A stretch of DNA of 14,764 nt from Clostridia bacterium. GTDB lineage: Bacteria > Bacillota_A > Clostridia > Oscillospirales > CAG-272. Position 1 is the stretch's first letter; every line of letters starts with the position of its first letter. The notes below the pieces were generated by a model. That model was given only the letters and a program-made list of their open reading frames with translations, did not search any database and had not been told where the DNA came from. Positions 8,654 through 14,764 of this stretch are shown one piece after another. The stretch lies in assembly GCA_017626655.1 (NCBI GenBank), contig JAGAIH010000471.1, forward strand, positions 1 through 14,764, in the 5' to 3' direction. The position numbers were made by a program, and so were the translations under genes.

Positions 8654-8751
8654 GTACATGAGGGAAATTTATTGATCTTTCCGATTTTTTTGCAGGAGAA
8701 ACAGGGGGCAAATTTGGGTTTGACGGGGTGTTTGGGTTGGCACGAACACCC

Positions 8752-8888
8752 GTGGGGAGCGACGCCCTCGTCGCTCCGCCACATAGAACACACCAATATG
8801 TATTCGGATGTAAAGGTAAATAACAAATATCCGACAATAGACAAAGGCAATTTTCAGGTTGCGGAGCGGTGAGGGCACCGCTCCCTAC
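8752..8888. repeat. Inverted pair of 31-base hairpin units with compensatory changes
   Basis: Unit 1 (8752-8782) contains GGAGCGACG-CCCT-CGTCGCTCC at 8756-8777. Unit 2 (8858-8888), read on the minus strand, contains GGAGCGGTG-CCCT-CACCGCTCC. Both units are 31 bases, begin GT(G/A)G and end GC(C/A)AC. Stem positions differ in matched pairs (AC/GT against GT/AC), so the hairpin is preserved while the sequence changes. The units face each other across 75 bases of AT-rich sequence. The layout resembles a BIME/REP pair or a short MITE. Confidence 0.8.
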
Positions 8889-8941
8889 AATGGGTTATTG
8901 GCAACCGAACCATCGTGCCGACAGCCCGCCAAATCGCAACG

Positions 8942-11799: not shown

Positions 11800-11828
11800 A
11801 TAGTACCATAGAATGAGGAAAATGTCAA
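11800..11828 (-). promoter_or_regulatory. Sigma-A type promoter of the GH99-like gene
   Basis: On the minus strand, TTGACA (complement of 11823-11828), a 17-base spacer and TACTAT (complement of 11800-11805), with TGG directly before the -10. It is about 50 bases from the start codon. The leader contains a small hairpin (CGGGG/CCCCG, 11776-11780 and 11788-11792). Confidence 0.87.
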
Positions 11829-11848
11829 CAAGTTTTGATGAAAAAATA

Positions 11849-11877
11849 TTGACTAATTGCTATATATGTTGTATAAT
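11849..11877 (+). promoter_or_regulatory. Sigma-A type promoter facing the nuclease element and secreted glycosidase
   Basis: TTGACT (11849-11854), a 17-base spacer and TATAAT (11872-11877). Expected transcription start is near 11884, just before the left inverted repeat at 11893. It is divergent from the GH99-like promoter; the two -35 boxes are only 20 bases apart, so one regulator could affect both. Its downstream genes are the nuclease ORF at 11988 and then the glycosidase at 12521. Confidence 0.85.
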
Positions 11878-11892
11878 AGTCACAACACCCTA

Positions 11893-11951
11893 CCGCGTCT
11901 TTGCCTTCCCCAGCGGGGAAGGGGGACCGCGAAGCGGTGGATGAGGAGAGC
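11893..11951 (+). repeat. Left terminal inverted repeat of the DUF559 element
   Basis: Contains two consecutive hairpins: CCTTCCCC-AGC-GGGGAAGG (11904-11922) and ACCGC-GAA-GCGGT (11926-11938), followed by GGATGAGGAGAGC. It starts about 9 bases after the predicted transcription start of the promoter at 11849-11877, so it is transcribed as part of the leader of the nuclease gene. Confidence 0.85.
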
Positions 11952-11987
11952 CAATTGCTGATACCCTGACGGAGGAGCGGATAACCT

Positions 11988-12365
11988 ATGCAATATAACT
12001 ATAACAAGAACCACACCTCCCTTTCTAAGACTCTCCGCAAAAAGATGACCCCTGAAGAAAAACACCTCTGGTACGATCTCCTTAAACGCCTCCCCGTAAC
12101 TGTTAACCGCCAAAAAACCATCGGTGACTTCATTGTTGACTTCTACATTGCAAGCGCAAGGCTCGTTATCGAGATCGACGGTCAACAGCACAATTCTTCC
12201 GAGCACGCCGAAGCGGACCGCAAGCGGGACTTTGATCTGTGCAAACTCGGAAATACCGTGTTGCGGTACTCGAATCGGGATATCCGTGAGCGGTTTTCGG
12301 TGGCGTGTGAGGATATTTTGAGACACTTGGGGCTGAGTTATGAGGATTTGAAACCTAAAAAGTAG
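11988..12365 (+). CDS. DUF559-domain endonuclease-like protein (Vsr/PD-(D/E)XK type)
   Basis: A 125-residue protein of the DUF559 family, distantly related to very-short-patch-repair endonucleases. Visible family features are LRKKMTPEEKHLW (16-28, conserved Glu23), Q-K-T-I-x-x-F-I-V-D-F-Y (42-53, Asp51), LVIEIDGQQH (59-68, Glu62, Asp64, His68) and a C-terminal LGNTVLRYSNRDI strand-helix. Asp51 and Glu62 fit the D-Xn-E-X-x core of the PD-(D/E)XK nuclease fold, so a DNA-nicking or cleaving activity is likely; the target is unknown. GGAGGAG lies 10 bases before the ATG. The gene is enclosed by long inverted repeats and is more AT-rich, with codon choice unlike the adjacent glycosidase genes, which suggests acquisition. 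Length matches stand-alone DUF559 proteins. A bona fide Vsr partner, a cytosine methylase, is absent. Confidence 0.88.
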   Translation: MQYNYNKNHTSLSKTLRKKMTPEEKHLWYDLLKRLPVTVNRQKTIGDFIVDFYIASARLVIEIDGQQHNSSEHAEADRKRDFDLCKLGNTVLRYSNRDIRERFSVACEDILRHLGLSYEDLKPKK

Positions 12366-12418
12366 CTATTGGCTTTGCTTTTATGTGGTTGGCACCTCCG
12401 GTAGGTGCGTGGAAATTC

Positions 12419-12478
12419 GCTCTCCTCATCCACCGCTTCGCGGTCCCCCTTCCCCGCTGGGAAAGGCCAAGGACGCGG
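12419..12478 (-). repeat. Right terminal inverted repeat of the DUF559 element
   Basis: Read on the minus strand it repeats the left end: GGGGAAGGGGGACCGC, then GAAGCGGTGGATGAGGAG, identical over 43 bases (12461 down to 12419). Differences are restricted to the outer part, for example CCTTT for CCTTC, which breaks one pair of the first hairpin. A separate 6-bp hairpin (GCACCT/AGGTGC, 12392-12408) precedes it inside the element. Confidence 0.85.
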
Positions 12479-12520
12479 AACTCAATTATGAAAGCATACC
12501 CTTATGAAGGAGGATATGAA

Positions 12521-14764
12521 ATGAAAACCAAGAAGTACGCCCCCCGCCGCGCCCTGGCCCTTGCCCTCGCCGTCCTCATGGCCCTGAGCACCGTCACCGC
12601 CGTGGGATACACCGCCATCCTCTCGGCCTTCGCCGCCGAGGGCGTGGACAAGTACGCGCCGAACGGCACCGTCCTGGTCTCCAAGGACGCCAAGGTTTCC
12701 GTCTCGGCCTGCACCAACCAGCGGGCAGGCTCCGAGAACAGCTACGAGATGCCCTCCGAGACCTGGACCAAGATCAACCTGACCGACGGCCAGATCGGCA
12801 ACGGCGGTTGGTCCTGCCAGCCCTACGACCGAGAGATGGACCACACCAAGCCCGTCACCGTCACCCTGGAGCTGGTCACCCCCTCCGAGGTCTGCGCCGT
12901 GACCCTCTTCCCCCACGGCCAGTTCCCCGCCAAGTACGAGATCCGGGTCTCCTCCGACGGTAAGACCTATGAGAAGGTGGCCGAGGACGCGGGTATGCCC
13001 ATCAACCAAAGCTCCCCCAAGTCCTACAGCTTCGCCGCCAAGAAGGCCAAGTTCGTCCAGCTCCACATCATCGAGCGCAACCCCGCCACGGGTCCCGACG
13101 GCGCTCTGGCCCAGCTGGGTGAGATCGCCGTCTTCGGTGTCGCTACCGCCGACGTGACCCTGGACCGCACCATGCTGGAGCTGTTCGTGGGCGAGACCGA
13201 CAAGCTCTCCCCCGTCTTCGTGGGCACCAAGGACACCTTCCCCGTCACCTTCAAGAGTGCCGACACCTCGGTAGCCACCGTGGCCGCCGACGGTACGATC
13301 ACCGCCAAGAAGTTGGGCAAGACCACCGTCACCGCCACCTGCGCCCAGCTGAACAAGACCGTCACCTGCTCGGTCGAGGTGGTACAGACCAAGCACTCCT
13401 TCGACGAGAACATCATGATCTCCATCTTCTGGCCCCCCACGCCCGAGTATATCACCGACGAGCAGTACAAGCTCCTGGCCGACGCGGGGGTCAACTGGGT
13501 CATGGGCGCAGGCGAGGAGACCCTGGCCACCGTGGAGAACCAGAAGAAGATGCTGGAGCTGTGCGCCAAGTACGGCATCGGCATGACCGTCTCCGACGGC
13601 AACTTCGGCGGCTCCCTGCTGAATAAGAGCGAGACCCAGATCGCCGCCGCCGTGGCCCGCTACAAGAACGTCCCCGCCGCATACGGCTTCTACATCCTGG
13701 ACGAGCCCTTCAACCCCAACGCCTATCTGGACGCCTACATCAACCTCAAGAAGGCCGCTCCCGACGCCTACATGCACCTCAACTTCCTCCCCAGCGGCTC
13801 CTACGGCTCGGAGGAGATCTACAAGGCCCAGATGAACGACTGGGCCAGACTGACCGCCTCGGCGGGCTACCCTCTGGACTACCTCATGTTCGACCGCTAC
13901 CCCTTCCCCCTCCAGGCGGGTGCCATGGACCGCGCGGGCTTCTTCAAGAACGTCCGCTCCTGCTATGAGGTGGGTCTGAAGAACGACGTCAAGACGGGTC
14001 TGTACATCCAGACCGTCTGCCAGGAGGTGGCCTTCCGCCGTCCCACCGACAGCGAGATCCGCTACCAGATGTACGCCTCCCTGGCCTTTGGCTACAAGCA
14101 GCTCTCCTTCTTCACCTGGTTCACCCCCGTCAACCGCTCCGAGCCCTTCAAGGACGGTATCATCGCCCCCGACGGTACCCCAAACAAGCACTACGAGACC
14201 ATCAAGACCATCAACCACGAGATCCTCGCCATCGGTGAGACCCTGGTCAAGTGCGACGCCCTGGAGGTCTATTTCAACGGCCCCGACACCTACGGCCAGC
14301 CTACGCCCCCCGCCGACTTCTTCGTCCAGGCCGACAAGAAGGATTCGGTGATCCTCTCCTTCCTCCGCCACAAGGAGACGGGGCGCAACTACCTCATGGT
14401 GGTCAACAACAACTACGGCGCCAAGCAGGAGGTCGAGCTGACCTTTGATGCCGCCATCAAGTCTGTCTCCGAGGTCAGCCGCGTGGACGGCTCCCTGAAG
14501 GCCCTGAAGCTGGACGGTCAGAAGCTGAAGCTCACCCTCCCCGCCGGTGACGCCATGTTCATCGCCCTGCCCGAGGGCTTCGATCACTATGACGCCCCCG
14601 AGGGCCAGCCCGCCGCCACCACCAACCTGGCCATCGACGCCATGATCACCGCCCCCTATTCCGCAGGCTCCGACGGCTGGTACATCTCCTGCCTCCAGGA
14701 CGGCCAGCGCATCTCCGAGGGCCTGGGCAACGGCTGGAGGACCGAGAACCGCAAGGCCTCCTAC
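12521..14764 (+). CDS. Secreted multidomain glycosidase-like protein (discoidin, BIG2, barrel, discoidin), runs off right edge
   Basis: An open frame of 748 codons to the window end with no stop. Residues 1-38 are a signal peptide: basic MKTKKYAPRR, hydrophobic core, cleavage near AFA-AE. Residues about 57-206 form a discoidin (F5/8 type C, CBM32-like) domain, with KYEIRVSSDGKTYEKV and KFVQLHI near its end. Residues about 208-288 form a BIG2 domain: LDRTMLELFVGET, then T-S-V-A-T-V-A-A-D-G-T-I-T-A. Residues about 291-600 look like a clan-A type barrel, with GFYILDEP (389-396), where Asp-Glu-Pro stands in the place of Asn-Glu-Pro, and IQTVCQE with Glu502 as a possible nucleophile; about 600-685 is a beta-sandwich. 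A second discoidin domain begins near 702 and is cut at 748. AAGGAGG 7 bases before the ATG fixes the start. Exact GH family and substrate are not recognised. Confidence 0.85.
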   Translation, partial: MKTKKYAPRRALALALAVLMALSTVTAVGYTAILSAFAAEGVDKYAPNGTVLVSKDAKVSVSACTNQRAGSENSYEMPSETWTKINLTDGQIGNGGWSCQPYDREMDHTKPVTVTLELVTPSEVCAVTLFPHGQFPAKYEIRVSSDGKTYEKVAEDAGMPINQSSPKSYSFAAKKAKFVQLHIIERNPATGPDGALAQLGEIAVFGVATADVTLDRTMLELFVGETDKLSPVFVGTKDTFPVTFKSADTSVATVAADGTITAKKLGKTTVTATCAQLNKTVTCSVEVVQTKHSFDENIMISIFWPPTPEYITDEQYKLLADAGVNWVMGAGEETLATVENQKKMLELCAKYGIGMTVSDGNFGGSLLNKSETQIAAAVARYKNVPAAYGFYILDEPFNPNAYLDAYINLKKAAPDAYMHLNFLPSGSYGSEEIYKAQMNDWARLTASAGYPLDYLMFDRYPFPLQAGAMDRAGFFKNVRSCYEVGLKNDVKTGLYIQTVCQEVAFRRPTDSEIRYQMYASLAFGYKQLSFFTWFTPVNRSEPFKDGIIAPDGTPNKHYETIKTINHEILAIGETLVKCDALEVYFNGPDTYGQPTPPADFFVQADKKDSVILSFLRHKETGRNYLMVVNNNYGAKQEVELTFDAAIKSVSEVSRVDGSLKALKLDGQKLKLTLPAGDAMFIALPEGFDHYDAPEGQPAATTNLAIDAMITAPYSAGSDGWYISCLQDGQRISEGLGNGWRTENRKASY

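Follow-up and report, generated by a model that had tools for sequence, protein, structure and literature searches.

Does a small nuclease gene that lies between two long inverted repeats belong to a mobile element, and does the nuclease itself move it? REPs are very common repeats in bacterial genomes. A preliminary description of the window (the whole stretch of DNA analysed here, 14,764 nt) had compared one of its loci, a DUF559 nuclease gene enclosed by repeats of this kind, with the RAYT transposases and their REPs, and had proposed it as a candidate self-mobilising element.

The window unit and its nuclease

The inverted ends (Table 1) are as close as first described, with positions 11909-11951 and the reverse complement of 12419-12461 identical at 43/43 bases. 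Their imperfect extension was found again in a gapped local alignment, which pairs 64 bases with 65 (score 51), and in an inverted-repeat search, which returned 80-nt arms of 84% complementarity; the exact figure given earlier, 59/60, was not reproduced. Both arms fold into the two hairpins reported for each end (DNA folding parameters; z = -2.55 and -2.07 against shuffles), the right arm more weakly, its hairpin 1 being imperfect (CTTTCCC faces GGGGAAG). Each two-hairpin unit carries a GGATGAGG tail. No Rfam match in the window reached the gathering score.

Table 1. Features of the DUF559 unit, in positions of the window
Feature	Position	Strand	Remarks
Left inverted arm, full	11893-11956	+	begins CCGCGTC
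Left REP	11903-11950	+	hairpins and tail; same REP type flanks relatives
Left REP, hairpin 1	stem 11905-11911/11915-11921		followed by GGGG linker
Left REP, hairpin 2	stem 11926-11930/11934-11938		followed by tail GGATGAGGAG
DUF559 (Vsr-like PD-(D/E)XK) nuclease gene	11988-12365	+	125 aa; D51/E62/D64/H68 intact
Right inverted arm, full	12414-12478	-	GACGCGG at end
Right REP, inverted	12419-12467	-	hairpin 1 imperfect
Stretch missing at the G001 counterpart locus	11895-12500	.	comparison with G001

The only sizeable plus-strand gene inside the arms encodes a DUF559 protein (PF04480, 3.7e-24), and the active-site core that had been called intact, D51, E62, D64 and H68, is indeed invariant across 44 aligned DUF559 sequences. 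An AlphaFold2 model of the protein (pLDDT 80.9) matched the DUF559 protein NGO0050 (3hrl), the homing endonuclease I-Bth0305I (3r3p, E = 2.6e-4) and, more weakly, Vsr. As modelled, the protein has the PD-(D/E)XK, Vsr-like fold of a Vsr-like homing endonuclease, with intact active-site residues. The likeness to I-Bth0305I, which we take to be an EDxHD/Vsr-like homing endonuclease, lies in the fold match and in the D, E-x-D and H residues, invariant in DUF559; the difference is that the DUF559 unit has no intron and that its gene lies between REPs. The Vsr mismatch endonuclease and the Caulobacter DUF559 protein VsrA, which PMC12907096 presents as Vsr-like, are similar in fold and in the DUF559 domain and differ in the repeat setting. 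The best PADLOC match of the window protein, to DpdF (3.9e-8), covers 55 residues rather than the whole protein and was rejected.

Pairing of DUF559 genes with REP types

A scan with the window protein returned 382 relatives, 80 of which were kept. A second search, across the family, gave 138 DUF559 matches in 68 of 146 genomes; 113 of these matches were taken, three from G001, the nearest relative genome compared, and 25 weaker or partial ones were left out. De-duplication by identical gene sequence gave 175 unique loci, and 167 remained after eight with less than 150 nt on one side were dropped; five pairs of 100% identity with differing starts (L043/L209, L044/L230, L057/L152, L062/L197 and L074/L200) were kept. 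Complementary arms with a score of at least 15 flank the gene at 85 of the 167 unique Clostridia loci and at none of 270 shifted controls (pairs of segments offset by 500 and 900 nt at the Clostridia loci). The controls scored at most 14, against 51 for the window unit, which excludes a chance origin of the window arms.

Four REP types were defined by regular expressions composed after the loci had been inspected: A (GCCTTCYCC/GGRGAAGG, tail GGATGAG), B (AAGCCTCCCTTGTGTAAAGGGAGG with GGAGGGATT), D (CTCGCCC/GGGAGAG with GGAGAGGG) and F (CTCCCC/GGGGAGG). Arms or a typed REP are present at 130/167 Clostridia DUF559 loci, the other 37/167 having neither. Among the 88 family loci outside the similarity-found set, the corresponding counts are 39/88 for arms and 61/88 for arms or a typed REP. 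One of the four types lies at most 700 nt from the centre of the gene at 61/88 DUF559 loci, compared with 5/136 control segments and 1/50 loci of Y1 transposases. The window observation exemplifies a widespread arrangement, in which DUF559 lies between inverted two-hairpin REP units.

Genome-wide counts connect the repeats to the gene in the same way. The type-A pattern occurs in 49/146 family genomes, which bears out the earlier statement that such repeats are common in gut clostridia, and the type-B pattern in 32/146 genomes at 102 places; the reversed-pattern control gave 0 for both. DUF559 is present in 40/49 type-A genomes versus 28/97 others (p = 1e-9) and in 27/32 type-B genomes versus 41/114 others (p = 1.6e-6; Fisher tests, both uncorrected for kinship), and is missing from 9/49 and 5/32 respectively; G118, for example, has 47 REP matches and no DUF559. 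Enrichment of the repeat near DUF559 genes, a check that had been proposed for this locus, was marked: 19 of the 102 type-B REPs lie 33-39 nt away from a DUF559 gene, where 0.08 would be expected under uniform spread. The window arm itself has 69 matches in G001 at E <= 10 and 66 at E <= 0.01. No exact type-B REP was found in IMG/VR, where the scans gave three distant proteins.

REP type corresponds to protein clade. Wherever both arms could be typed, they agreed (63/63 loci; A/A 42, B/B 16, D/D 4, F/F 1). On a FastTree phylogeny of 174 proteins, weakly resolved with 90/171 inner branches open, the 117 typed loci need five type changes, the minimum for four types being three; with the 57/174 untyped loci as an extra state, 30 changes are needed against a shuffled mean of 75.6, and none of 200 shuffles was as low. 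Co-inheritance of gene and arms is expected from linkage alone, and the telling point is that the unit stays intact while its surroundings change. In hairpin 2 of type B, 202/205 positions pair across 41 distinct inserts (shuffles: mean 137, maximum 155), and since the stem partners co-vary, it is the hairpin itself that has been kept. In units of the L129 type the right REP overlaps the final codons, and the DUF559 stop codon lies within the second hairpin.

The architecture also appears in some plasmids of Sphingomonadales and Rhizobiaceae. A tblastn search of plasmid records matched 44 records, of which 24 were taken and 23 loci retained, L301 being omitted as part of a longer protein. Two-hairpin REPs stand shortly upstream of DUF559 in Sphingomonas (L292), Sphingobium (L293), Novosphingobium (L294) and Shinella (L289), and the Sphingomonas REP occurs at 104 places in 14 records. 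Arms scoring at least 15 flank the gene at 9/23 plasmid loci, including four from Deinococcus and two from cyanobacteria, and at 0/62 shifted controls (maximum 13); the 14/23 loci without such arms include E. coli L299, Pseudomonas L380 and Geobacillus L382. The E. coli gene, presumably ycjD, has a palindrome upstream. A scan for double hairpins alone separated the 23 loci only moderately from control windows (21/46 sides versus 34/183). The S. meliloti L291 arms are a weak case, lying amid several copies of the same repeat, which we take to be RIME-like. At three Deinococcus plasmid loci (L297, L376 and L377) DUF559 lies in an hpa gene cluster, in a different intergenic gap each time.

Insertion sites, gene-less pairs and larger elements

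An empty site, which the preliminary description had suggested seeking in the nearest relative, is present in G001. With this site and the enrichment of REPs near DUF559 genes, both checks named as able to refute the preliminary reading turned out in its favour. The counterpart locus there lacks the element, with flanks 95% identical to the window; contig C65 runs continuously ahead of the same right-hand gene (...CACAACACCGTACCCTTTC...), and the window has ...CACCCTACC, the insert and then TACCCTTATG.... The insert comprises about 606 nt, REPs included. TACC at 11891-11894 and 12497-12500 forms a 4-nt direct repeat around it, possibly a target duplication or else a product of chance, and about 18 nt on its right (12479-12496) fall beyond the inverted arms. 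No clear target duplication was seen; where a MITE of a DDE transposon would have TIRs and a target duplication, the window insert has its inverted arms and, at most, the TACC repeat. Two further candidates for empty-site comparisons were discarded: an S. meliloti copy, taken from coverage as the empty counterpart of the Sinorhizobium K101 locus, proved to be a decayed gene with an internal deletion, and Shinella L303, which lacks the gene, has an identity of only 76-82%. For L373, a gene-less pair in G160, comparison with G141 and G038 gave no match beyond the REPs except in part of one flank, at 76%, and was uninformative about an empty site.

Related units are found in different surroundings. 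We compared 228 unit pairs of at least 80% identity, which are non-independent, and with a generous definition of 'edge' (from -130 to -30 on the left, from 0 to +200 on the right) homology was lost near the unit edges on both sides in 136 pairs and on one side in 82 more; it continued leftward in 19 and both ways in 4. Most near-identical unit pairs have the REPs in common too. Within G141 alone, three units (L129, L155 and L162) of 92-96% identity have unrelated flanks. Flanking open reading frames (ORFs) differ at the six loci inspected, except for an upstream ORF common to L134 and L136, and no transposase was seen among them by eye.

Sister species of genus g37 carry the repeats without the gene. 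At 14 of 17 places examined (13 by pattern, plus L357), an inverted REP pair encloses a spacer of about 22 nt, and the gene occupies the position where the gene-less pair has just this spacer. Two loci on one contig, L034 and L035, have genes that are 100% identical but REPs that are not: the left ones diverge from hairpin 2 outwards, and the right ones in hairpin 1, where the two strands of the stem have changed in step. The identity thus breaks inside the REPs, so that the copied tract ended there, in this single case; such a pattern would be expected if a resident REP pair had been repaired from a copy that bears the gene. There is good support both for the pairing of REPs with DUF559 and for a mobile unit.

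REP pairs also travel within larger elements with terminal inverted repeats (TIRs). In G001 two pairs are enclosed by intact elements, 241 and 252 nt long, whose TIR is AAATTTGGGTTTNTCGG, and the TIR core is found near 15 of the 17 REP copies inspected. We counted 134 copies of this TIR in G001 and 59 in G118, and it encloses other interiors as well, five intact elements having no REP tail; with the outer TIR found 134 times, we dropped REP copy number in G001 as a sign of DUF559-driven spread. A carrier end, AAAACTGTCC, lies between +128 and +135 in 13/15 type-B units and at +433 in L138; L171 has none. In G141, the L129 unit belongs to a larger inserted stretch, about 1.25 kb long, which has a TIR of its own (CTCTAAAGGACAGTTTT) and contains another ORF. 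Neither G160 nor G038 has this stretch, at flanks of 95 and 99% identity in G160 and of 80 and 83% in G038; judged by eye, the insertion had gone into a terminator-like hairpin, at its loop. Contig C24 of G160 (L357) holds a gene-less version of this carrier with both ends present. Neither carrier TIR was found at the window insert (11800-12600, up to four mismatches). Part of the spread of REPs may be owed to other, unseen transposases.

Several side observations concern these carriers. Those at L129, L130, L132, L134, L136, L142, L153, L158 and L125 have the TIR core GGACAGTTTT on both sides, varying cargo genes and a REP pair near the right end; no transposase was seen by eye in those among the six loci inspected. 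Four G118 loci (L307, L311, L313 and L325) have the same outer TIR around REP pairs of different alleles, some of them nested, as if the interior had been replaced. The window itself contains a degenerate copy of a TIR element at 8709-8939 (CAAATTTGGGTTT..), with similar stretches on about 20 G001 contigs.

Candidate movers of the unit

The analogy with RAYTs and REPs fits the anatomy of the unit. In the REPtron (RAYT/TnpA-REP, GTAG REPs and REPINs), as set out in PMC3116915, PMC8266576 and PMC3733652, a small enzyme gene likewise lies between inverted palindromic repeats, REPs are many and dispersed, inverted doublets are the short form, and enzyme and REP types co-vary. With G001 standing in for the window's genome, we found the gene between inverted REPs and both solo REPs and doublets in the genome. 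The differences lie in the enzyme, HUH/Y1 there and PD-(D/E)XK (PF04480) here, and in the repeat, which has the GTAG tag there and a double hairpin without GTAG here. Elsewhere in the window, at 194-259, a perfect 21-nt inverted repeat (GTAGCGGCGGCTATCAGCCGC and its complement, spaced 24 nt) resembles a REP pair of the GTAG type.

REPs with a CGTC tag offer a second comparison. A 2013 survey names RAYT as the dedicated enzyme of GTAG REPs and none for CGTC REPs (Di Nocera 2013, PMC3733652). Set against its text description rather than its consensus figure, type-B REPs, when reversed, likewise give CGTC beside a hairpin and then GCCA, and the window arms differ in having CACC and a second hairpin; the main text of the survey contains neither 'clostridi' nor 'firmicutes'. 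An unpaired CGTC beside the stem occurs in type B and in Novosphingobium L294 and is absent from the window arms. In the open-licence PMC literature we found no paper on a DUF559-REP pairing, which leaves its absence elsewhere unproven, and none with DUF559 alongside 'inverted repeat'; the matches there for DUF559 with transposition concern other subjects, judged by title.

We favour, at a probability of about 58%, a REPtron-like mobile element in which a Vsr-like DUF559 nuclease replaces the RAYT (HUH) transposase. REP-gene-REP would be the complete form and the gene-less inverted pair the short form, like the REPINs of RAYTs. The nuclease would recognise and cut hairpins of its own REP type, and the break would then be repaired from a gene-bearing copy (homing), or the pair would be copied to a new site. 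By analogy, if a homing endonuclease gene had inserted in the site that its enzyme cuts, it would be expected to look like a gene in the spacer of a REP pair. We infer that DUF559 is the mover of the unit. The earlier term 'self-mobilising' goes further than the results support so far, since none has DUF559 moving the unit and REP pairs (in G001 and g37) also lie in larger TIR elements, which something else may move. With the gene between mirror-image hairpin repeats and the unit at many different sites in gut bacteria, the nuclease seems to be to such repeats what the known repeat-moving transposases are to theirs, though it is a different kind of enzyme. We know of no strand-transfer activity in a single-domain PD-(D/E)XK nuclease, and homing alone fails to explain insertion at a REP-free site, as in the window.

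A narrower form of the REPtron-like explanation, with odds that overlap, is that DUF559 is purely a homing endonuclease gene, which invades existing REP pairs via double-strand-break repair while the pairs spread by other means. This is quite possible: the gene lies in the spacer of a pair, pairs that lack it are common among sister species, L034 and L035 combine an identical gene with outer hairpins from different REP alleles, and the nearest solved structures include a homing endonuclease of the DUF559 fold. Against it, the whole window unit, with its REPs, is absent from G001, and L034/L035 is a single case beside the near-identical unit pairs, most of which share their REPs. DUF559 could instead be cargo, captured between two REPs and carried along by a transposase encoded elsewhere that moves both REP pairs and larger TIR elements. 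The 1.25-kb stretch of G141, with its own TIR and second ORF and its absence from G160 and G038, the gene-less carrier with both ends in G160, and the REP pairs inside the two short TIR elements of G001, with the TIR core near most copies inspected, all argue for this view. We nevertheless consider it unlikely, as the window insert lacks either carrier TIR, homology at L171 stops exactly at the right REP, and the pairing is found with four REP types, distributed in step with the protein tree, and in other phyla as well. Nor should chance capture give matching arms at every doubly typed locus, though a genome-wide REP type could contribute.

The proposal that DUF559 is a housekeeping repair nuclease that trims REP hairpins, with the arms serving as leader, ribosome-binding tail and terminator, would account for the REP tail (GGAGGG or GGATGAGG) just ahead of the start codon, for the overlap of the right REP with the stop codon in type B and for the Vsr-like Caulobacter DUF559 protein (PMC12907096). 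Multi-copy units at unrelated sites and the empty site point to mobility instead and make it improbable. It is more improbable still that RAYT-type HUH transposases mobilise the GCCTTCCCC..GGATGAGG REPs and that DUF559 is incidental; we give this hardly any credence. Y1 proteins (PF01797) are indeed commoner in REP-bearing genomes (type A 26/49 versus 28/97, p = 0.006; type B 21/32 versus 33/114, p = 0.0003; Fisher tests uncorrected for kinship). However, no Y1 match was found in G001 or G118, which have the most type-A REPs among the 146 genomes, nor in G071, and the one Y1 locus in 50 with a DUF559-type REP nearby (L270) adjoins a DUF559 gene, to which this REP belongs. None of 20 weak, RAYT-like Y1 loci has DUF559-type REPs as arms, and two of the RAYT-like loci, L265 and L280, are flanked by GTAGGGGC repeats instead.

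Beyond the REPtron-like reading of the unit, we advance more tentatively that DUF559 nucleases may form a second, independent class of REP-dedicated enzymes in Bacillota, Alphaproteobacteria and Deinococcota, one that would include the missing partner of CGTC REPs and would home into REP pairs, spreading both itself and the repeats. If this is true, REPs would have a testable partner in a Vsr-like nuclease that has REP types of its own. Such a nuclease would also account for the scattered, multi-copy DUF559 genes, and would link the fields of REP repeats and homing endonucleases.
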